From Pelagophyceae sp. CCMP2097 (taxonomy: Eukaryota; Sar; Pelagophyceae), in NCBI GenBank assembly GCA_026770575.1, contig MU657167.1, positions 315,649 through 379,648 on the forward strand: DNA of 64,000 nucleotides, given 5' to 3'. A program made the translations under genes and the position numbers. Below the pieces are notes generated by a model. That model was not told the origin of the DNA and did not search any database. It worked only from the letters and a program-made list of their open reading frames with translations. Below, in pieces: positions 838 to 15,721 of this stretch (position 1 is its first letter; every line of letters begins with the position of its first letter).

Positions 838-1906
838 TCATGTCGGTTGACCGGAGCGCGTCGCCGCGAGGTGCGCCGCGAAGCGTGCGGCCTGCGCCAC
901 AGCGCCGACGTGCCCCATGGCCGCCGCGCGCTCGAAGAGGTGCGTCGCCTTCTGGTGATCCCGCGGCACGCCTTGGCCCGCTGCATGACACGCGCCGAGG
1001 TTGAAGAGTGCGCCGGAAAAAAACCGCGCCGCGGCGAGCCGGAACCACTTGACGGCTTCTTCTGTCGACTGCGCCACGCCTATGCCCTCGCGTTCATGTT
1101 GCCGAGATTGTATTGACCTTCATGAAATCCCTGCTCGGCTGCGCGCCGGTACCACTGCACGGCGGTCTTGTAGTTGATCTTGACGCCGTTTCCAAGACGA
1201 TAACACTCTCCCAGGTGCGCCTGACCTCGAGCATTGCATTGCGCCGCCGCGCGCTCGTACAGCTGGAACGCCCGCTTCAAGCTCTTCTTGAGACCCAGGT
1301 CACCATTGCGGTACGTGTGTCCGAGCTTGCGCCTCGGCGTCACGAGGGGAAGTTCCCCTCGTCCGCGTGCTTCTGCAGCCGGCGCAACAACTCGGCATTT
1401 GAATTGTGGGCTGGCGCTCGGCAGAACGGGCAGCGATCGTCGTACTGCCGGCACTTGTTGAAGCATTCCGTGCAAGCCTTCTTCCAGCAGCAACAATATA
1501 ATGCTAGCTGGTCAACTTCGATCGGAAGCAGATCGAGGCAGATGGCACAAGTGCCGCGCCAGTCCGGCGTGTCGACGTTTGGCGCGGTGGCCTTGACCAC
1601 CGTCTTTTCCGTCGGAACAGCCGGTAAGCGCGCCACCGCCTTGGCACCGTCCGCCGGCGCGACGTCCTCGACGATGACCGGCTCCTCCTTGGGCTTCTTT
1701 TCCGGCATGAGTTCGTCGTGGAGCTGGTCTTGGAACTCGGCGGCCAGCTGCCTGCACTGCGCCTTGTGCCCGTGCTCGTACCAGTCGACGAGCTGGCACG
1801 CCTTGCTGCAGTAGTGCCGCGATTTGCACTTGGTGCAGTGCTTGCCGCCCGGCCCGTCGCATATACAGCACGGTTTGGGCACGGCGCCCGGTGGCGGCGT
1901 GTCCAT
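838..1906 (-). pseudogene. MYND-RING-Sel1 repeat protein, frame-disrupted
   Basis: Starting at 1906 the minus strand encodes a MYND zinc finger (CCICDGPGGKHCTKCKSRHY and following Cys/His ligands), then a RING-like finger (CAICLDLLP, CCCWKKACTEC, CPFCRAP), then at least three Sel1 (TPR-like) repeats such as LGHTYRNG, LGECYRLGNG and LGACHAAGQG. The family usually works as a scaffold or E3-like protein. The reading frame breaks in at least three places. Near 1340 one extra base precedes GACGCCGAGGCGCAA (DAEAQ) and one follows it, just before LGHTYRNG. Near 1085 one base is missing before EGIGVAQSTEEA. None of these breaks has splice sites. It is therefore either a young pseudogene or a real gene with base-calling indels. 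Reads or transcripts would settle which. Confidence 0.7.
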
Positions 1907-2365
1907 CGTGCCGTGGCAGTCCGTCAAGTGCTGGTCGCTCAGCGCGTTCAAGGTCCAGGTGCTCGCTCGAAGGTACCTTTCAAAGACGAGTCCTTGATTC
2001 GGCAGAGCAGCCGTGTTTGGGAAGACGAAGGACCGACCGGGGTGCTCCTCCCGAATGCCCCGCCGGCAGCAAAGCCTCGAAGCGCCCACGTCGCCGGTGC
2101 CGCTCCGGATCCTGCAGATCTACAATTGTTCCGTGGAACAAGTTGCAGGATGCGGTACCGCGGGTTCCGGCGTTTGGCGAGTCTGGAGGCTCTGGACTCT
2201 GGAGCTTGGCCCGGGCGCGCGGGCGGGCCCGCGCCGCGGTGGTCCTTGGTCACGGAAGGCCCACGGAGGCCCCTCTGTAAGTCCCCTCGAGGGGCCGGCT
2301 GAGCCTGGCTTCGAGGCTGGGCTCGTTCGGTGTTGCTTTTCATTAGATGGCTCCCGGCGTGGGCC
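1907..2365. other. Intergenic stretch, no gene seen
   Basis: This lies upstream of the MYND gene and downstream of the VWA8-like gene. Open frames here are short and show no recognisable motif. A short imperfect dyad, ACAATTGTTCCGTGGAAC, sits near 2121. Confidence 0.5.
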
Positions 2366-5300
2366 TCAATGCGTTTGCGCGAGGTTTGCCTGAAACAGTT
2401 CCTTGAACGCGGTGACGAGGTGCGCCGCGTCGTGGCAGTGGAAGCCGAGACCCGCCGGCAACTTCGCCGCCACGGCCTCTGGCGCGGCGCCGGGCGAAAC
2501 GAAGAGCGCGTACGCGCGCACGCTCGCGTTCGCGGAGAGCGCGTTGCCGAGGGCCTCGGCGGAGACGTCGTAGGCGGCAAAGTCGGCGTCGCTGAGGACG
2601 AAGACGAAGCGCTCGTCGGCGTTGCCGGCGGCGGCGTCGGCAATGGCGCGCTGCGTCGCCTCGAGCGTGTGGTCGCCGGACCGGCACTTGCGCGCGTGGT
2701 CCGTCATCGTTGTGAGGAGCTCGAGGCGTTCTGCGCGGCCGCGCGGCGGCTTGCCCCAGTCGACGAGCGGGACGCACGCGCTGGCGCCGGAGTGGCCCAC
2801 GATTGAGTAGTCGAAGCGGTCCTCGAAGCCTGCAAACGCCTCGAATACGAGGACCACGCAGTGCAGCAGCCGCGTGAGGCGGCGGTCGAGCTTGTTGCAG
2901 GCGTACATGGATCCGGAGATGTCGACTACGAAGCGCACGCGCGTCGGTGCGCGCGTTAAAGCGCCCGGCGGGCCGCGCGCGCCGTCGGCGGGGCTGACGC
3001 GGCGCTTGTAGACGTTGGTGGCCCCGGCGAGGCCGTCGACGAGCATCGCGTCGTCAAGCTCGCCGTGCGGCTGCAGCCGGCGCCAGGTGCGCTCCGTCGC
3101 GCGCGCCGAGGACCCGGCGAGCACCGCGCGCAGCGCGGCCACGTCGTGCGCCACGGGCTCTAAGAGCCTGTCGTAGTGCGCGCGCTCCGCCGCCGTCATG
3201 CGCTCCTGATGCATCTCCAGCCGCCGCGCGTCCTCCACCACGTCGGCGAATGCGCCCCGGCCCGTGGGTGCCGACCCCGTCGCCGGCACCGACCGACCGA
3301 CGGCCGCCCCGCGGCGCTCGACCGCCGTCGCTTTGGCGTTGGTCCCCGACGTTGTGTTCGAGCTGGTCTGCGGCGACGCGTCTACGTCGGCGGGCGTCTG
3401 CCGGAGCACGTTGCGGAGCGTTTCGAGGAGGTGCGCGTCGTGCGCCTCGAACGCAAAGACGTCTTTGAACGCGGCTTCGACGCCGTCGTGTGGAAACGCC
3501 TCGAGGTGCTCGCAGACCTTGACGAGCTCGCGGCTGGAGAAGGGGTACGCGACTCGCGCGGCGTCGTGGAGGCCTCTCAAGTTCTTGAAGACTTTTGCCA
3601 GGCGCGCGGCCGTGCGCGCGGGGAGGCCCGGCGCGGCGCCGCGCGCCATGTCGGCCTCGGAGCATTCGTCGACGTTGCGCACGGCGCTGCACGCAAAGAC
3701 GTCGCCGCATGCGGCATAAAAGTCGTTGCCCGCGAATGGGAAGCCCGGTCGGTTCGCCAGAACGACGATACGAAAGTCGGCGTGCATGACCAGCGAGCCA
3801 GCCGGCGCCGTCGCCCCGTGCCGCGCGGAAACGAGGCGGCGGCCGTCGGCGAGCGCCAGGTCGCCGTCGTCGACGAGAGCCTTGAGCACGCAGACGACTT
3901 CTCGCGGCGCCTTGTCCGCCTCGTCGATCACGAGGACGTGGCCCCGCAGCGCCGCTTTCACCAAAGGCGCGTCCTGCCAGACGACGTCGCCGCGGTGCAG
4001 CGTCCGGGAGACGGTTAAAGACTCTATAGTAGTGTCGCGGTGCAGCTGGATGTAGTGCCTTTCTCTCTGCAGCAGCTCGAGGAAGCGGTCAAGGACCTTG
4101 TTCTTGCCGACGCCCTGGTTCCCGACGAGGAGGAGGTGGTCGCCGTTGCCCCAGTCGGCGAGCATGCCTCGGAGGAGTCTGAGGTGCGAGGCGACGTCCA
4201 CGAAATAGCCCCGCGGCACCAGCTCCGCGTCCGGCCGCTCCGACACACGACGCACGTGCTCCACGTCGCCGATGCGCACCGAGTGGTCCCACGTCCCATA
4301 ATCGCCGTCGATGGGCTCTTCGCCGACGAGCGTCCGGTTCACGGAGACGGCGGGCGTTTCGCCGTCGCGTTCCAAGGCGTCGCGGCGCATCCTTTTCATT
4401 CCGCGGTCGCCGAGGGCGTCTCGCAGGATGCGCCGGGCGATGCGGCGCTTCGGGCCGGGAAGGAAGTCCTGATGGGCGGCGAAGACGTTTTCCACTCCAC
4501 TCCCGAGGCCTCGCTTCCAGAGCCGCATGTGGTCGGCGATGCGCCTTAGAGTCCGCGGCGTCAGCGCCATGGGCGCCAGCGACCGCTCCGTAAGACCGCA
4601 CTGACGCATCGCCTCGGCGTACTTTATCAAACCTACACGCAAGCTCGACCGCCGTCCGGATTAAAGGCCAAGACGCCAGTTTGACTGACTGCGCTCCTCG
4701 TGCGCGGCGAGGCGGAACGTCTTTTCGCCGGCGGCGTCGAGGAACGACATCTTGACGAGCGAGACGACTTCCGTCGAGGAGAGTTGCCTGACAACCTCGT
4801 AGTGCATCAGGCCCAGCACGTCGCCGTCGAGCCACGGGTTGGACGCATTCGGCGGATTCGCCGTCGCGAGGATGCGAAACGCGGAGTGGACGCGCAGGGC
4901 TGGCCGCGCGTCGGCCGCGTCGAGCCGCGCGGCCAGCCGAGTGCCGTCGGGCAGGTCGAGGTCGCGGTCCGAAAAGAGGCGGCCGAGCGCGGCGGCGAGG
5001 ACGCCCGGCGGCAGCCGGTCGATGCCGTCGAGGACGGCGAGCCCCCCCGCCAGCGCCGCATCGACGAGGGCCGAATGTGCCCATGCGGTGCCGCCGCCCG
5101 AGGAGACGCGCCGCGCCAATAGGTCGCGAACAGTCATGTCCCCGTGGCACGTCACCGTGCACGTCGTGTAGCCTAGGCGCAGCCACCGTGGTCGCATGCC
5201 GCTGCGAAGGCCGCCCCCCTCGGGAAGCCTCCTCGAAGCTTCAAGGGTCGCACCGAGCAGCTCGGCGAACTCGCGCACGAGGGTCGTCTTGCCGACGCCC

Positions 5301-8300
5301 TTGCCGCCGACGACGCAGACGTCGCGGCCGACGCAGTGGTCCTGGACCATGCGCGCGAGGACGCAGCGCTGCGTCCCGCTCAGCGCTGGCCGGCCGCGCA
5401 GAGGCGCCGGCCGCGCGTCGCCGCTTGCGCAGAGCGCGGAAACGTCGGCGTCGCCGTCGCCGCTCCGGAAAACGACGGACCGCCGCCGAGACCCTAAGGA
5501 AGCGTCGGTGACGATGGGTGCGTCGCGGCGACCAAAGACGCTTCTTCGACGGACACTCTTCGACGGAATAATCAACCCTCACGCCTCACGGACGCTTCTT
5601 CTGAAAAGGCCCCCTCTCGAAGAGTGCGCACCGTCGGCGGCGTCCGGGGCGAGGTGCACCGCTTCGATCGTGTACGTCGCAGCGCCGAGTTGCCGCGGCG
5701 TCGTCGGCGTCGTCGGCGTCGCCCCGAGGGGCATCCCGTCCGCGTCGAAGCTATCGTCGTCTTCGTCCGAGTCGCTCTCCTCGTCGCTCCCGCGAGGGGC
5801 GTCGAGTCCCTGCTGCATCACGCCGGAGCGGTCGATGGGCCGGCCGTCGGCGTCGATGTCCTCGTCCTCGCTGTCGGTCGAATCCTCCGACGAGACCGAG
5901 TCCGAGTCGGAGCCGCGCCCCGAGTCCTCGTTCGGCGCGGGCGCATCAGATGAAGCGCTGCCGCTGCCGCGGGCGCCGGCCTCCTCCTCCTCCGGTCGTG
6001 CGTCGTCGACGGACGACACCAAAGTGCTGCCGTGCGCAAGGGCTTCTTCTTCTCGGAGCGTCGGCGTCTTCGCAAAGGCGACTGCGCAGGCGTCTTCGAT
6101 CGCGGCGTCGCCGGCGATACCGTGCGCGCGCAGGAGGTCGTTGAGCTCAGCTTCTGCGACTGCATCGCCGCGGACGCCGCGGAGCAGGTCAAAGGGAAAG
6201 CTGCGCCGGAGCGCGTCGAGGGGCGCGAGCCTTTCAAAGGCGGCGAGGAGCCGCGCCGACGCCGAAACGGCGCCGTGCGGCGGCCAGGGCCGCGCGGCGA
6301 CGGTGGCCTGTCTGAGCAGCTGGTCTTTCCCCCACTGCGGGAGTTCCCGCGCCGTCCCGTCGAGCGCAAACAGCCCGCGCGGCCGCGTCGGCTCCCAGGC
6401 CCGCCGGAGGTTGTGCACGAAGCGCGCGACGCGCAGCGCAGAAGCCTCGGCGTCGCCACAATCCGGCAGGCACGCCGTCGCCGCGGACGCCCGGAACGTC
6501 GCGTCGACGGCGGCTTCGAGCTCGTCGATGCTCGGCGGCGGGAGCGCGTAGAAGCAGAATCTGGACCGCAAAGGCGGGTCCATGGCGCGGCCGGCGTGCT
6601 TCGGTATCGCGACGCCGATTGCGATCACGAGGAACTGCGGCGACACCCGTCGAACCTTGGAGTCGGCGCCCAGGAGGCCGCCGTCTACGAGCGCATCGAA
6701 GCGCTGGTCAGAGACGAGGCCGCCGCCGTCCTCCAAAGGCATCTCGCGGTTCTCGAGGAGGTCGTTGAGGAGAGGCAGGACGTTGCGCTCGCAGCGGTGC
6801 ATGCCCTCTACGATCAGCACACGCCCGTGGACGGCGGCGCGCACGGGCGCCGCGTCGTGCCATACTAAAGTGCCGCCTATAAGCTCGCGCCGCTGCCGCA
6901 GGTCGGCCTCGGTCGTATCTCGGCTCAGGATTATAACCTCTGCCTCGCGGCCGATGAGCGCGCAAAACTCGAGTGCCAACCTGCGCGGCTCCGGCGAGCC
7001 CTCGTCGCCGACGAGGCACATGTCCTGGTGCAGCTGTCGCTTGAGCAGCATCCAGCGCAGCGCTGCCGCTCGCCGCTTCGGGACGGCGGCGCCCCACGCC
7101 CGTAAAGGCGACCCGAGCAACGCCGGCGTCGCATTCGACTGGCCAGGCCGCTTCGCTTTGACTGCAATAGTCTGCGCGCCGCGCTGCTTGAAGCTGACGA
7201 CGTTGCCCTCGACGGAGACGTCGGCCCCTCCGTCTTCGTCGGCGAAGACGGCGTCGCCGGGGAGGTCCTTGCGGTTCAGCTCGTCGCGGAGCGCCAGCGC
7301 CAGCGGCGCCGAGGAAGCGTCCAAAGCGAAGACGTTGCGCAGCGCGAACGCGACGCCGTCCTGCGGGAAGCGCTGCAGGTGTCGCACGACCTTAACTAGC
7401 TCGCGGCTCGAGTACGGGTACGTGAGCCGTGTGCGGGCGCCGTGCTGCGGCGCCGTGGCGAGGGTCCGGAGGTGGGAAAAGGCGAGGCTGAGCTTGCGGA
7501 GGATTTGGTCGTCAACGTCTGGGGCGTGGGCGCGGAGGAGTTGGATCTCGGAAACACAGTCGACGTCGTCAAATACGACCGTTGAGAACGCGTCACCGCA
7601 GACGGCATGCAAGTCGTGCCCGTCAAAGGGCGCGCCGGCGCGGTTCGCGAGGACGATCATGCGGAAGCCGGGATGTATGACCACGTCCCTCGTTTCAGAG
7701 CATCTCTCGCAGGGTTCCGCCGAGGCGTCGCGTCTCCGCCGGCCCTCGCATTTTGAGCAGCGCAATACGCGGCGGCCGTCCGCGAGCGTGAGGTCGCCAT
7801 CTTCAAGGAGGGCCTTGAGGACGCAGACGACCTCCGGCGGCGCCTTGTCCGCCTCGTCGACGAGGAGGAGACTCCCTTTTTTTAACGCTCGGACCAACGT
7901 CGAGTCCGTCGCCGTGAGCACTCCTTGTTGCACCAGCGGCGCCCACGTCAAAGTCCCAATCGTCGTGTCGCGGTGCAGCTGGACGTACTCGCGGTCCGCG
8001 CCCAAGAGATGAACGATGTGGTCCGCGACCTTGTTCTTCCCGACGCCTTGGTTCCCGACGAAGAGCACGTGCCGCCCCAGCGAGAGCTCCAGCAACGCGT
8101 CGCGCACGTACCACTTGTGCGCCTCAATGCCCACAAAGTCCCGCGAGGAAGCGACGCGCCGCTCTGCCGGGACGACGGTTGCCCCACCCGCAGAGCGGCT
8201 CCGCAAGTGCGCCTCGGACCGCGTCGGAATGCGCACGTCGCCGACGATGAGGTCGGCGTCGTCGTAGCGCGGCGTCGGCGCGCGCTGGCCCGCTCTCAAA

Positions 8301-11300
8301 GCGAACTTTGAGCGTCGGTCCTTTGTGCGTCGGCACGCGACGTCCGCCAAGCGCCGGACCACTTCCCGAGCCGACGCCGGCTCGAGGAAGTGCGTGTGCA
8401 CGCCGATGACGCGGTCCAGCGCGCCCTCGAAGTCGCCCGACGCCGCTGCGGCGGTGGCCACGCGGACGAGCTGCCTCGGTGAGAGGACGCACCGCGCGAC
8501 GGCCGCCGCCGCCGCGTCCGCGCCCGTCGCCGCGCGGCACGTCGATACGTGGTCGCGTAGCGACGCGTTGAAGCCGACGAGCGCGTCGGCGACGGTTGCA
8601 GCGCAGGCGGCGGCGCCGCAGGCGCGGAGCACGACGGAGCGGTCGTCGGCCGACGCGAAGGGCTGCAGCGCCTCGAAGCGGAACCTGCGCGGGCGAGACG
8701 TCGGACATGTGTGCGCGCGGCGACGGCCCCGACTCGCTCGCGGGGTGGTGGTGGTTTTAACGAGAGGTGAGGACACAAGTCAACAAGGGGCCCTGAGAAG
8801 GGACCTTCTGACAAGGGACCTTCTGAGAAGGGCCCCTTAAAGGGACGCGGGGCAAGACAGCGGCGTGAGCGAGGCGTCGAGCCAGGTCGCGTGGTCGCCC
8901 TGCTGGGCCACCGTGGCGACTGCGATGATGCGGAACGCCGGGTGGACGCGGCGGACTCTGTACCGCGCCTCGAGCTTCTCCACTGTCGTCCCCAAGTCCG
9001 CGGCGAGGCGGTCGCAGTGCTGCGCGCTCAGCAGCCGCGACCCGTCCTATAAACGGCGCTGCGGCAACGCCAAGAACGCGGGGGACGACGCAAGGGGGGA
9101 GACGACGCACCGGCAGGTCGAGCTCGCGCCGGAGCACGAGGCGCGCCAGCGTCGACGACAGCAGCGCCGGCGCGAGGCGGTCGATGCCGTCGAGCACGGC
9201 GAGCTCGCCTGCCGTCCGCGCGTCGGGAATTTGGGCCGGGCGACGAGGACGCGTCTCTCGAGGCGACTGACCTTTGACGGCTGCGTCCACGAGCGCAGAG
9301 TCGCACCAGATCGTGTTCCCCGCCTCGTCGGTCACGTGCCGCTGCAGCAGCTCGCGCGCGGTCAGGTCCGCGTGGCACAGCGTCGTCCGCACGCTGTACC
9401 GCAGCGCGGAAGCGAAGCTACAATCGGCGCATCTTCGCAGGGATGCTTGTAACTATGACGATACCCACACGCCTGGGGCTGCTGCAAGGCCCGCTGGGTC
9501 GTACGCTGCATCCCGGCAAGGACGCTGCGGGGTACGCTCGGACGACGCGCGTCTTGCCGGCCCCGCGGTCGCCGACGACGCAGACGTCGTGCCCAGCGCA
9601 GTGGTCATGCAGCATCCTCGACAGCGTGGCGCGCTGCTTCGCCGTCAGGTCGGCGTCGGCGTAGTGTTCGTGAGGCACCTCTTGACCGCACGACGCCTCC
9701 ACAGCGACGGCGCCTTCCGGCGGACCAAAGGTCAACTCCAGCCCGGGGCTGCTGCCCGCGGGCCACGACGCTGAAACAAAGTCGTACGTCGGCGCCTCGA
9801 CAAGGCTGCTGCGGTGGTCGGGACCGGCAGCGAAGTGATGCTCGACGCCCGTGGGCCCGCCGCAGAGATTGGTGGACCCGCCGCAGAGACTGTCCACCAA
9901 TTGGTCGACGAGGCGAATCTTCGGCCCGGCGCACATGAGCTGGTACGGGTACGCCCGCGCCTGGCGGGACCATCAATCGCGCGCAGCACAGGGCTTGGAT
10001 CGACTCGGAGGAGGGTTGTCCGACGGCGGCCGAGGGGGGTCGTCCGACGGCGGCGGGCTCACCAGCGCGTCGCGAAAGGCGATGCCTTGAAAGAGCGCGT
10101 TGAGCTTGAAGATCGACTCGACGACGCTCGGGACGCACACTGGCGGGCCTTGGATGGCCGCGACGGCGACTGATAACCTGCGAGTTGGAGCGGTCGTCCG
10201 CTAGTACCAGTCGTCGTATTCGAGTACCAGTCGTCGTATGCAGTGGCAAAACGCACTGCAAGACGAGCGTCTCTACCGTTTCATCTTCGCTCGCGGGACC
10301 GGCCGCGTCCTCGCGGTGCGTCGCCGGCGGGCCCGAGAGGTCGTACGCGCTCAGCCGCGACCGCAGCGGCGGGTCGAGGATTTGGCCGCGCGTCCCGAGC
10401 ACGATGACGATAAAGGCCTCGGAGGCGCGGCGCCTAGCGCGCGTCGATCACCAGCGCGCGGTCGACGAAGGACGTTTTCGACGACTGCTGGAACGGAGGG
10501 CGCGAGTGACCCCACTGCGGACGCCGGGGCTTTGCAGCCTGCGTCGCGGCTCCGCGCCGCGCGCCGTCGCGGCCTGGTCGGCCTCGAGGGCGTCGAAGCG
10601 CTCCGGGGAGACGATGAGGGAGCCGTCGTCGAGCTCCATTTCGCGGTTCTCCATGAGGTTATTCAGCATCGGCAAAACGTTGCGCTCCGCGTGCTCCAGG
10701 CCGTCCAGCACCAAGACGCGGCCCTGCAGCGCCGCACGGACAGGCGGCTGGTCCACCCAGAGCACGTCTAAGTCACAAGAAGGTGCGCAACGAGGGGTCC
10801 GTCCGAGAAGGGGCCTTCACAGTTTCCCTTCAAAGTTTCCGAGAATGCCAGTGGCCCTTCAAAGTTGCCCAAGAATGGACGCACCACCCTGGACGATTTC
10901 GCGCCTTTGCCTGAGGTCGGACTCGGCCGTGTCGCGCGTCACGTTGACCCACTCGACCTCTCGGCCCAGGAGGAAGAAGAGCTCGGCGAGGATGGCAGGG
11001 GCCCGCGACCTAGTCGCCGCCTCGGACGCCAAAGTGCGGCGCTTGAACGCACCCCGGTTCCGTGGCGATGTACATGTCGTGGCGGAGCGTCATCTTCTGC
11101 ATCGCCCAGCGCATGAGCTCGATGGCCTCGGACCGCGCGGCGTCCCGGCCGCCGGCCCGAGGTGCGTCGAAGAAGGGGACGCGCGTCGGGTCGCGCGGCT
11201 TGGCGCAGCGCGCCAGGCTCACGTCTCGTACGATCACCGCCGCCGCCGTCGAAACGACGTCGTCGGACGGGACGCCCGCGGGGGGCTCGACGGCGGCGCG

Positions 11301-11333
11301 CCTCTGCTTCTTCAGCGCCGCGTTGTGCGCCAT
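2366..11333 (-). CDS. VWA8-type AAA+ ATPase with duplicated AAA block (six modules) and C-terminal VWA domain
   Basis: Read on the minus strand, modules appear in VWA8 order twice. Block A: AAA1 (RDTAESDLRQRREI about 10930; HAERNVLPMLNNLMENREM about 10660; DPPLRSR about 10350), AAA2 (Walker A GDRGAGKT about 9570; AVLDGID about 9195) and AAA3 (GNQGVGKNK about 8040; VDEADKAP about 7850). Block B: AAA1' (LSRDTTEADLRQRREL about 6920; DPPLRSRF about 6570), AAA2' (GGKGVGKT about 5310; AVLDGID about 5035) and AAA3' (GNQGVGKNK about 4105; IDEADKAP about 3925). The GELDDAMLVDGL motif follows, then a VWA domain with MIDAS DISGS (about 2930). One uninterrupted frame (8776-5579) runs from AAA3 into AAA1', so the blocks are fused. 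Introns include 10768-10884, 5494-5631 (GTGCGC..TTAG) and about 4629-4690. VWA8 of animals is a mitochondrial ATPase with three AAA modules. Here the linker before VWA is only about 150 residues. The start at 11333 is uncertain. Confidence 0.85.
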
Positions 11334-11409: not shown

Positions 11410-13016
11410 GTCGAGTCGTCCATCGAGTCGTCCGAGTCATCGAGTTTATCTCGACGGTGCCGCGCCTGGCGCGGGCCGCTTAGGAAGACTCTTTTGACAG
11501 AATCGTTGTGGGCACCGCGGCGGGACGCCTCCCACGGGAGACTCACGTCTTCGTCGATCTTTTCGCGGAGCTGTTTGAGGTATGGGGCCACTTCGGCGCA
11601 GCCTGTAAATGGCGCGTCCGCTTCCGAGCCTGCCACTCTGCGAGGCACGCACCGACGAGCCTCGGGCTTCGCGTGACGACGGCCGCGAGCGCCGAAAGCG
11701 CCTGTCAATCGTCGCTCGGTGCCAAACAAGACCTCGTAGATCCACCTGGGCGGAGGTCTCACCTCGCGGCCTTGGCGGCTCGTCTCGGTGCATTTGTCGA
11801 GGCGCTGCACGCAGGCGAGCATCTTGGTCTTGTCCACGTCCACGTCGACGGCCTCGACGAGCGTCGCCGACAGCGTCAGCCAGCCTGAGCGACGCGGGTG
11901 TACGTCGGATCTTCGACGAAACGAATCCCGCGGGCCCCTTTTCCCGTGGGCCCCTTTTCCCGCGGGCCCCTTTTTCCGTGGGCCACGCACCGCGGAGCGG
12001 GGCCGCGACCCTGCCGCGCGTGACGACCTTGTCTAGGCCTTTATGCGCCGCCTTGGCCCAGGGATCGCCCGGCGTCGGCTGGTCCGCGACGACCTATGAG
12101 GCTCGGTGCGCTTCGGACCCGAGAGCGCGTGCGACTCACGATGCGTGCCGTCTCGAGGATCCGGACGTGCCGGCCCTGGTCGACGATGCCGACGACGGGC
12201 GAGAACACCTAGTCGCGGATCGCGTGGCGGACGGACGGCGCGCCCCTTTGCCGAGGCAGTTCGTCGATCGGGGGCGGACCTCGCGCGTCTGGCGGATGCG
12301 GGCGCCGAGGAGTCCAACGACCTTGTACGGCCTGCCGCGCGCGCCGTCGTCGCAGAAAAGCTCGATTGTCGTTCGGCCGTCCTCGATTGTCGTTCGGCCG
12401 TCCGCGGCGCCGTCGCGGTGGTACGCGGTGACGCCGTCCTTCGTGCCGAAAAAGTAGCCTTCGTGGTATCCGGCAAAGGCGTCCGACGCAACCACTTCCG
12501 GCCGCGCTGCGGCCGGGACGTCGTCTTCTTCCGGCGTGAGACAAGGTTCGTCCACCGCTCCGCCGTCCGCCGCCCGTCCGCCGCCGCCGTCCGAGTCGCG
12601 CGCCGCCAACGCCTCCTATCGGAGACGGTTGGAGGCTTTGAGGCCTTTCTTCGAAGCGTCGATGGCGACGGTCCGAGGCGACTGACCGTCGGGCCGTCGA
12701 CGGCGGGTTCGGGGGCGTCCTTCGGGTAGAGGTCAATGTTCTTCATCGAGAGCCAGCCTAGAGACGGAAGTCCTATTCGTAAAACGCTCGGCAGCAGGAG
12801 ATGCGGGCACTCGCCGCGCACGGGGTCGGTGATCTCGACGCGGGTGCCGGCGACGCGCACCGCCGTCACCGCGGTGCGGAAGGGCAGCTCCGCGACGACG
12901 GGCGAGGCCAGCGCGCCGGCCGCGCGCACGATGGCGCCGCGCGGCGTCTTCACGAAGCACCGCGTCGCGACGACGTCGCTCGCCGCCGCAGCGGGCTCTC
13001 CGGCACAACCTGCCAT
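11410..13016 (-). CDS. Protein with two SH3-like segments; possibly the N-terminal part of the VWA8-like gene
   Basis: From the Met at 13016, the exon reads CFVKTPRGAIV...DPVR|GWLSMKN, an SH3-like segment. It crosses a GC-AG intron (12758-12814). A later exon carries GYHEGYFFGTKDGVTAYHRD and a duplicated DGRTTIE. Further exons read VVGIVDQGRHVRILETARI, then VVADQPTPGDPWAKAA after a GTGAGT..ATAG intron, then RVAAPLR|GWLTLSATL across a GTGCGT..CTCAG intron (11885-11990). The two GW(L)(S/T) endings suggest repeated SH3-like folds. The same strand continues through YLKQLREKIDEDV and an acidic DDSDDSMDDSTDDEE stretch into the AAA1 region of the next gene without an obvious new start. The two may therefore be one gene. 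Function is not recognised, and exon edges are approximate. Confidence 0.45.
11933..11985. repeat. Tandem repeat, three units of about 17 bp, inside an intron
   Basis: Three units of GGGCCCCTTTTCCCGT type lie within the inferred intron 11885-11990. Similar AAGGGGCC/GGCCCCTT motifs also occur in the introns around 8785-8840, 10795-10830 and 5590-5630. Confidence 0.6.
12361..12402. repeat. In-frame 21-bp tandem duplication
   Basis: CTCGATTGTCGTTCGGCCGTC occurs twice back to back. On the minus strand it encodes a repeated DGRTTIE heptapeptide in the SH3-like protein, so the reading frame is kept. Confidence 0.8.
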
Positions 13017-13352: not shown

Positions 13353-15721
13353 CTAGAGCTTGGTGACGATCACCGCCCAGTTGCCCTGGTCGTAGTACGT
13401 CTTGCGTATTCGGACGCCGTCCAGCTGCGCGACCTGCGCGGGAACGTCGGAGGCTGCGTTTACGGAAGAGCGACGCACGATGGCCTCGAGCTCGCCCTCG
13501 GCGTAAACGTGGCAGAACCGCTGGAGCACGAGCGCCCGCCTACGCCACGGCGTCCCGGCGCGCGGCGGGTGCGAAGACGCACTTTGCGGTGTCGACGACG
13601 GCGTGCGACGGCGCCTCGAGCGACGCTTCGTCATAATACTCACCTGTTTTATCAGTCGGTCCGGCGTCTTGTTCGGCGCTCTCGCATTAGAGCCGCGACC
13701 TTTACCGTGCGTCCGGAAGTGGAAGGGGACGAGGACGTCGGGCGTCTCGAAGCGGTGGCCGGACCGCGATTCGAACTCTCGCTGCTCCAACGCCCACGCG
13801 TAGAACAGCGCCTCGCCGCCCGGCCGCAGCACGCGCACGCACTCGGAAACCGTCCGCAGCCGCCGCTCCGGCGTCGAGATGTGGTGCAGCACCTGCGGCC
13901 GTCGACCGTCGACGCGCTTCCGCCGCGATAGGGCCTCGTCGCCGGCGGCCGCACCGCGATGCAGAGCGCTGCGTCGAGGGAGTTGGACCGGATCGGCAGC
14001 GTCAGCGCGTCGGCGCCGAAGGCGTCGCACGCCATGTCGCGCGTCTCGCGGTGCGCGATCTCGACGAGCTTTAGCGAAATGTCACAGGCGACGCAAAAAG
14101 AGCCTACGTCCGCCGTCGACGCGGGACGCCGGCCTTGTTCGATGCCCTTACCGGCTTCGAAGCAGGCGCCCGCGTTCTTGCCGTTGCCGCAGCCGATGTC
14201 GCCGACGAGCGCGCCCGGTTCGCTGCAGACCTCGCGCACAAAGTCCTACGCAGCAGCGCTCTGGGGCCGCCTCGTGTCCGAGGCTCCCAGGCCCCGCGCG
14301 GCATCGACGAATCTTACGGCGACGCGCGGCCAGGCCTTGTACCGCGTGCCGTGCCACTGCTCCGCCACGCAGTCGTAGACCTGCGTCCCGCGGTCGCCGG
14401 GCGCGGGGGGGCGCGCAAGCTCCTTCCCAGAGAAGAGGCACTTGCCTTACGGACGTGCTCGACTTCGACGGCCGGCGGCGCCCACTTGGACGCCGACGCG
14501 GCCGCGCCGCCGTCCGTCTGATACGGCGTCGACCGTTGCGAGCGTTTCGCGGCCTCTTGCTCCTCCTCGGAGGCGGCCGGCGGCTGCGGCGCGTCGCGCA
14601 TCTTTGCGGCTTTCTTCAGCACGCGCTTCGCTTCTTTGGCCTGCTCCTTGGCCTGCCGTTTTTGCTCACCCTTTGACACCTTTTGCTCTAAAAGCGCCGC
14701 GTCGGCCGCCGCGAACTGCAGCTTTGTCGCCTCGGAGAGGCGGCGGAACGTCAGCGAGACGCGCCGCGCCGTCACCGGCGGGATCTCGTGCAACCTAATT
14801 GCCATTGATCCCCCGTCCGCGGGAGCAAGGTCTTGACGCACCACTCGTCTGCCGCATCGCTGTCGACGCGCAGCGCGGACCCCACCGCGAGCCTAGTGCA
14901 TTTTTCGCCGCGTCCGCCGAGCCCGGCGGTCGTACCAGATCGCCTTGTCGGCATTGTCCTGGCGCGTGAAGACGACGCGCTGCTCCGAGACGAGCGAGAC
15001 GGAGACGAAGGGCCGCGCGAACTTTGCGTTGTCGACGTGCGCCGGTAACCACTGCCTGTAATACGAGGTCGCTCGACGACGCGGCACCGAGGCCCGCCAG
15101 CCGGCGATTCATACGAGGCCGCTCGACGACGAAGCACTGACGCCCGCCAGCCGGCGAGGATCCGCACCCTTGCTCGAAAAGGTTAATGCAGCACGAGTCG
15201 AACGCTTCGGCCTCGTTGATCCTGCGACGACGCCGATGAGGCGGCTGCTCGTCGGCGTCGCATCGGACGGACGCCGCGCCGAGGTTGAGTACACTCCGCG
15301 GCGGACGAGCGCGCGCACGACGTCGGCGAGCGCCGGCGGCATCGGCTCGGTGAGTGTCTATAGCGCGGCCGTCCACGCGCGCAAACCGCGTCGCAAAAGG
15401 ACGTACGTTCTCCACGCGGTTCAGGTTTGTGTAGGCTCCAAACTGGAGCATGATGCGGCTCTGCTGCCGAAGGGCGTGCGTCGGGTGCACCGGCGTGTAC
15501 GTGCACCCGGCCAGCTCGCCGCGCGCGCCCTGTTCCGCCAGCAGGCCCGCGAGGGCCGCGAGGGCGTCGCACTCGCTCGGGCTCAGCACGTTTGGGAAAA
15601 GCTCGAGCCCAGGGACCGCAAAGGTCCTGCGCCGGCGCCGCCTCTTCGCGAGGATGGACCAGCCGACGAGGAACAGCCCCGTCGCCGCCGCCGCCGCGAG
15701 CGCCACCGGGGAGGGCGACAT
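13353..15721 (-). CDS. AlkB-like 2OG dioxygenase fused to TRM9-type tRNA methyltransferase (ALKBH8-like)
   Basis: The N-terminus MSPSPVALAAAAATGLFLVG is followed by KRRRRRR and looks like a membrane anchor. Next comes an AlkB domain: LFPNVLSPSECDAL, INEAEAFDSCCINLFEQG, the iron-binding HVD of WLPAHVDNAKFARPF, and HEIPPVTARRVSLTFRRL with the distal His and Arg. A Lys-rich linker leads to a TRM9-like methyltransferase: VYDCVAEQWHGTRYKAWPRVA, SAM loop GDIGCGNGK, LHHISTPERR, VLRPGG and the family ending YYDQGNW. Many short introns were placed by motif continuity, among them 15056-15167 (GTGCGG..TACAG), GTGCGTC..TTAG near 14806-14850, GTCCGT..GCAG near 14390-14450 and GTAAGA..GTAG near 14250-14320. 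ALKBH8 makes wobble-uridine modifications (mcm5U/mchm5U) in tRNA. No RRM is visible, and the AlkB part resembles ALKBH5/ALKBH9 more than ALKBH8. Confidence 0.85.
15061..15160. repeat. 50-bp tandem duplication inside an AlkB-TRM9 intron
   Basis: Two adjacent 50-bp units start ATACGAGG(T/C)CGCTCGACG and share CCCGCCAGCCGGCGA near their ends. Both lie inside the intron inferred at 15056-15167, so nearly the whole intron is this duplication. Confidence 0.85.

Follow-up and report, generated by a model that had tools for sequence, protein, structure and literature searches.

The locus and its reading frame

The 64,000-nucleotide window analyzed here (Pelagophyceae sp. CCMP2097, assembly GCA_026770575.1, contig MU657167.1, positions 315,649 to 379,648) carries on its minus strand a VWA8-type gene with the module order AAA1-AAA2-AAA3-AAA1'-AAA2'-AAA3'-VWA, in which the AAA block occurs twice before a single VWA domain. 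The inferred gene spans about 13016 to 2366, based on exon joining and on the orthologues P0001 to P0003 described below. To join the exons, block 1 was compared with block 2 and with the three-module VWA8 that the genome also carries (locus C50), and the resulting frame from 11450 to 2366 encodes 2,671 residues with zero internal stops over 12 inferred GT...AG introns, nine in block 1 and three in block 2. Two splice donors are unusual (GTACCC at 9535 and GTCTTG at 8858). A single exon of 3,053 nucleotides (5632..8684) covers the stretch from block-1 AAA2/AAA3 to block-2 AAA1 together with an acidic insert. The 1,066-codon frame at 8779-5579, which contains AAA3 of the first block together with AAA1 of the second, agrees with the initial annotation, in which one uninterrupted frame from the first AAA3 into the second AAA1 had been described. 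This is by itself weak evidence for one chain, because 60-codon windows of this GC-rich DNA are open in 44-53% of cases in the other two minus frames. We therefore do not take the open frame as proof, and the argument is carried by the orthologues.

The gene is longer than previously annotated. A start at 11333 was not borne out, since upstream frames that extend as far as a Met at 13016 agree with the N-terminal parts of P0002 and P0003. This N-terminal region (11451..13016) is SH3_3-like, with Pfam E values of 0.0012 in P0002 and 0.00019 in P0003 that are both below the cut-off. The exons 13016-12815 and 12757-12687 were placed, the part 12615-11451 is partly resolved, and one upstream intron starts with GC. 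The SH3_3-like region is found in the six-module proteins; the C50 protein and P0124 are without it.

Six minus-strand matches to Pfam AAA_5 (10592-10762, 9135-9416, 7610-8071, 6557-7024, 4826-5173 and 3722-4138) mark the modules, which were also scored with profiles for AAA1, AAA2, AAA3 and VWA (M1, M2, M3 and VWA) built from 16 three-module VWA8s, leaving out the protein of the window. AAA1 of block 1 (10343..11135, M1 172 bits) is devoid of a Walker A motif and carries the arginine finger DPPLRSR at 10355-10375. It is followed by AAA2 (8585..9651, M2 212 bits) with GAGKT at 9550-9564 and by AAA3 (7259..8143, M3 312 bits) with GVGKN at 8033-8047 and DEADKAP at 7838-7858. A joint of 60 residues (7079..7258) leads into AAA1' (6551..7078, M1 217 bits), which again is without Walker A and has DPPLRSR at 6560-6580; the first Met appears only at residue 1203, inside AAA1'. 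Block 2 continues with AAA2' (4712..5380, M2 191 bits; GVGKT at 5285-5299) and AAA3' (3389..4225, M3 371 bits; GVGKN at 4100-4114, DEADKAP at 3905-3925). A spacer of 144 residues (2957..3388) precedes the VWA domain (2402..2956, VWA profile 207 bits, Pfam VWA_2 below cut-off) with the MIDAS motif DISGSM at 2906-2923. Neither AAA1 nor AAA1' contains GK[STN], and both AAA3 modules share the longer motif GNQGVGKN. The acidic insert between AAA1' and AAA2' lies approximately at 5723..6070; in the window, P0001 and P0002 it contains a repeated motif like (E/D)SLDADGxP, which occurs many times in P0002.

The earlier description of a module series repeated in the same order and strand, of Walker states common to both blocks (degenerate in AAA1, GKT in AAA2, GKN in AAA3) and of a terminal MIDAS-bearing VWA is thus confirmed. 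It had also regarded the AAA3-VWA region as reduced to about 150 residues in comparison with animal VWA8. The length holds, but not the peculiarity, as this stretch comprises about 200 residues in the C50 protein, and a long M3-VWA region is likewise absent from 33 of 226 proteins.

Assignment to VWA8

On the VWA8 profiles, the midasin open reading frame (ORF) of this genome scored at most 36.4 bits and the dynein ORF at most 9.7 bits. A search of the genome (66.2 Mb, 638 contigs; 14 candidates scored) with the C50 protein returned two loci only, namely the window and C50, where one open frame of 1,400 codons encodes three AAA modules and VWA. A midasin-like open frame on C287 and a dynein-like one on C473 were assigned from their sequence. 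Judged by these profiles, the modules are VWA8's own and the predicted protein is of the VWA8 type and not a midasin. AAA1, AAA2 and AAA3 follow each other in the VWA8 order, the C-terminal VWA has its MIDAS motif even if the Pfam VWA match stays below cut-off, and both blocks combine DPPLRSR in an AAA1 lacking Walker A with GNQGVGKN and DEADKAP in AAA3. VWA8 has a single AAA1-3 block and this protein has two copies, which makes it a variant of VWA8 and not a plain member. With midasin it shares six AAA+ modules and MIDAS in one chain, a likeness of architecture only, and no midasin-type modules. A Gly-rich motif before the VWA domain, GGNxWAGGTGGxxTAGLGG, is present in 203 of 226 VWA8-type proteins, and a pattern search of the same 226 found none in the window's protein, P0001 or P0002. 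The motif is not strictly defining, because 20 others are also without a pattern match (some proteins, P0003 among them, end early or differ).

Orthologues with the same architecture

The comparison covered 318 proteins, namely 316 homologue matches (best 120 of 873, of 201 and of 1,191 hits), the protein of the window and the C50 protein. Among these matches listed, the repeated block occurs in four only, the window's protein, P0001, P0002 and P0003, and 313 of the 318 have neither a repeated block nor a joined AAA3 piece; further cases may exist. The top homologues are P0001 from Aureococcus anophagefferens (2,227 aa; M2-M3-M1-M2-M3-VWA, i.e. five AAA modules and VWA), P0002 from Chrysophaeum taylorii (CTAYLR_008983, 2,446 aa; M1-M2-M3-M1-M2-M3-VWA, with one M3 and one M1 each matched in two pieces) and P0003 (1,944 aa; M1-M2-M3-M1). 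Over the modules they have in common, P0003 and P0001 are 97-99% identical and are therefore treated as one lineage. All three gene models run across the AAA3-AAA1' joint. Chrysophaeum and Aureococcus are pelagophytes, and both are also among the nearest named relatives of the two VWA8 genes of the window's genome. From these gene models we conclude that the six-module protein is a real, conserved variant of VWA8.

A separate observation concerns P0046, a eukprot transcript, in which residues 1-64 form a diverged VWA8 AAA3 lid directly before a VWA8 N-terminus and AAA1. This leading lid shares 52% identity with the lid at 986-1041 of the same protein, and the isoform P0113 has a different N-terminus. 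Possibly, P0046 is a second, independent AAA3-AAA1 fusion.

Origin of the doubled block

The modules were concatenated for a tree (46 rows, 669 columns, LG+F+R4), in which one node joins block 1 (UFBoot 85), block 2 (93) and all else (93). This makes the two blocks sisters, provided that the tree is rooted among the other VWA8s. Since the window, Aureococcus and Chrysophaeum are each present in both block groups, the doubling is older than their split. An approximately unbiased (AU) test on 43 rows gave p 0.971 for sister blocks. A separate duplication in each species was rejected (AU p 0.0018); grouping of the six-module type with the pelagophyte three-module type was also disfavored (AU p 0.031), but the SH value was 0.072. 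One shared doubling event is well supported, and self-duplication of the block is favored over paralogue fusion, although not proven.

The dinoflagellate VWA8s fall into two groups in the tree. One (Effrenium and Symbiodinium; P0126, P0127) goes with the pelagophyte three-module type, and the other (Symbiodinium natans, Durusdinium and Symbiodinium CCMP2592; P0005, P0009, P0014) adjoins the six-module type. Either two old paralogues or gene transfer could account for this.

ATP sites and arginine fingers

Conservation was read from alignment columns of up to 222 other VWA8s. In AAA1 the position of the Walker A lysine is occupied by R at a frequency of 0.84 and by K at 0.02 (n=216), and both arginines of LDPPLRSR reach 1.00 (n=219). 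For AAA2, the Walker A lysine is at 1.00 (n=220) and the Walker B D at 1.00 followed by G at 0.97, and arginine is not among the common residues at its finger positions. In AAA3, GKN, DE and the sensor-1 N are all at 1.00, and near the finger place one column has R at 0.27 and there is no conserved arginine. Family-wide, AAA3 is thus the module with the complete ATP site and AAA1 the one with the only conserved arginine finger. DPxLRSR occurs exactly once in 311 of 313 other proteins and is absent from two. It is present in both blocks of the window, in both blocks of P0002 (DPSLRSR in block 2), in block 1 of P0003 and in P0225; the motif pattern search did not find it in the P0001 model or in P0003 past its frame loss.

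In dynein, each module n+1 completes the ATP site of the module n before it. The midasin of this genome agrees with such a rule, as a pattern search found Walker A in the first five modules and finger motifs in the second to sixth (numbered by order). Applied to VWA8, the rule means that the AAA3 site should be completed by a following AAA1, which in a chain with three modules must come from another chain. We infer that AAA3 of a three-module VWA8 would meet AAA1 of a second chain in a 2 x 3 ring, and that in the six-module protein AAA3 would meet AAA1' in the same chain and AAA3' would close on AAA1. Through the doubling, an active site formed between chains would come to lie within one chain, and each ring would have one VWA instead of two.

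A one-chain ring as the probable outcome

The evidence for a one-chain gene comes from genomic exon joining together with the algal gene models. We propose that the window encodes a VWA8 paralogue with the AAA1+AAA2+AAA3 unit in tandem twice before a single VWA, probably one chain folded as a six-module ring with a docking or substrate-binding VWA. In our best reading, a ring of two chains would have become a ring of one chain by duplication. The three-module block, taken from the three-module paralogue of the genome, was confidently predicted as half a dynein/midasin ring, and this half ring matches Mdn1 (6or5) and superposes on dynein AAA1-3. The proposal of the initial annotation that a six-module ring arose by duplication is in line with the in-frame double block, the sister blocks and the VWA8 type of the modules, but it goes further than the evidence for ring closure and for self-duplication versus fusion. 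The structure prediction called for there was confident for the half ring and poor for the AAA3-AAA1' joint.

Several points speak against this interpretation. The model of the AAA3-AAA1' junction, made from a six-row alignment, is poor (pLDDT 61, pTM 0.43), and its two-module matches to Mdn1 or dynein are at 14-19 A rmsd. The AU test does not reject a fusion of two paralogues (p 0.07). One 33-nt intron of the gene model, inside AAA1 of block 1 (10434..10466), is doubtful. Among the orthologues, the P0001 model is without AAA1 of block 1, P0003 loses its frame after AAA1', and an older Aureococcus model marked partial, P0225, starts inside AAA1'. Block-1 AAA3 of P0002 is shortened (residues 721-901, matched weakly by M3 in two pieces, 59 and 26 bits); it still has GVGKN and DEADKAP, and a gene-model error or decay of one site would explain it. 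A further point comes from native profiles of the mouse protein, discussed with the literature below.

Two alternatives deserve similar, low weight. It is possible, although unlikely, that the six modules form one chain that does not close its own ring and assembles further, as an open arc or with two chains. Because of the low-confidence junction model the ring adjacency of AAA3 and AAA1' is unproven, and midasin and dynein show what can happen, not what happens here. On the other hand, module number and order suit one ring, and each AAA3 site would have an AAA1 finger within the chain. We give about the same small chance to one chain that arose when two VWA8 paralogues, already diverged, were fused. 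The AU test does not reject trees that place block 2 or block 1 beside an eight-row group holding three named dinoflagellates (p 0.0725 and 0.0726, respectively), and the blocks of the window are only 45-47% identical, but the best tree unites them with the support values given above.

Two adjacent genes, a three-module VWA8 without VWA followed by a complete three-module VWA8 starting near 7050, are improbable. The start of P0225, the Met at residue 1203 of the joined protein and the frequency of open 60-codon stretches in this DNA would fit, but the first Met past AAA3 falls within AAA1', which would then be truncated, and P0001, P0002 and P0003 span the joint. An assembly artefact or a misread midasin can practically be dismissed despite the UniRef name "Midasin" of the Chrysophaeum orthologue, which is VWA8 by its module profiles, because the same order in the assemblies of Chrysophaeum (P0002, 90-kb contig) and Aureococcus (P0001, 3.78-Mb contig) excludes an artefact, the blocks are too different to be copies of one stretch, and the genome has a separate midasin on C287 with at most 36.4 bits on the VWA8 profiles.

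The gene is flanked upstream by a Methyltransf_11 methyltransferase domain (13652-14245, minus strand) and downstream by a zf-MYND match just under cut-off (1340-2119, minus strand).

Comparison with known systems

The assembly of VWA8 is unsettled, and passages of the published work count two AAA+ domains (PMC10743472), three dynein-related AAA domains (PMC8517341) or, for human VWA8, six putative AAA+ domains in a hexameric ring (review PMC11764017, citing Niwa et al., 2018). The initial annotation had assumed three modules for animal VWA8, with which Pfam and the module profiles agree and which the published counts leave divided. The possibility that animal VWA8 has further AAA modules in its long region between AAA3 and VWA was considered and, on the basis of sequence searches, rejected; at E values up to 10, Pfam found three AAA_5 stretches in P0116 and three in P0024 (for P0024, 25 of 28 families are among the matches listed). 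A 487-residue piece of the long region of P0116 had no sequence match in the PDB, and none of the 37 PDB sequences that the 1,066-residue frame of the window matched is a chain named VWA8. A VWA8 with a doubled AAA block is unreported in the titles and displayed abstracts of the open-licence PMC papers among the matches listed, at most 20 per search.

CLPX is normally a hexamer. According to a passage of PMC10743472, the native migration of mouse VWA8 peaked near 200 kDa, which corresponds to about one chain and disfavors a stable two-chain ring; as a caveat, CLPX migrated at 80 kDa in the same native profiles. We consider the chances even that a further independent origin of a one-chain six-module AAA+ ring, besides dynein and midasin, is seen here, in which VWA8 would work as a ring of two three-module chains with ATP sites between them and an ancestor of these algae would have joined the halves through a doubled block, keeping one VWA per ring. 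This estimate was set lower because of the peak near 200 kDa. The natural six-module version in combination with the finger pattern of the family leads to a sharp, testable prediction, i.e. two chains with ATP sites at the AAA3/AAA1 contacts. With both states present in a single genome, it would also be a young case of the way in which one-chain AAA+ rings may arise.

Like the protein, midasin (Mdn1/Rea1) is a single chain with six AAA+ modules that ends in a MIDAS domain, but it differs in its midasin-type modules with five Walker A and five finger motifs. A passage of PMC10743472 calls Midasin/Rea1 the yeast orthologue of VWA8; a one-to-one orthology is not supported by our profiles because this genome has both. 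The dynein heavy chain likewise has six AAA+ modules in one chain, on whose AAA1-3 the predicted half ring superposes, but it has no VWA, and its ORF here scores at most 9.7 bits. The MoxR/VWA pairs NorQ-NorD and CbbQ-CbbO also have an AAA+ ring that works with a VWA partner, and single modules match NorQ and CbbQ. They differ in that the ring consists of separate identical chains and the VWA is on another protein. For MoxR rings it was suggested in a passage of PMC9976466 that a VWA "finger" enters the pore, which was extended to VWA8 by prediction. Three-module VWA8 (KIAA0564, P7BP2), including the C50 protein, has the same modules, order, motif states and C-terminal VWA with MIDAS. It differs in having the modules once and, in most matches, the long AAA3-VWA region, and the six-module proteins are without its GGNxWAGGTGG motif. 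If our interpretation is true, the six-module protein would be a natural tethered dimer that reveals how ordinary VWA8, the human protein included, is built.
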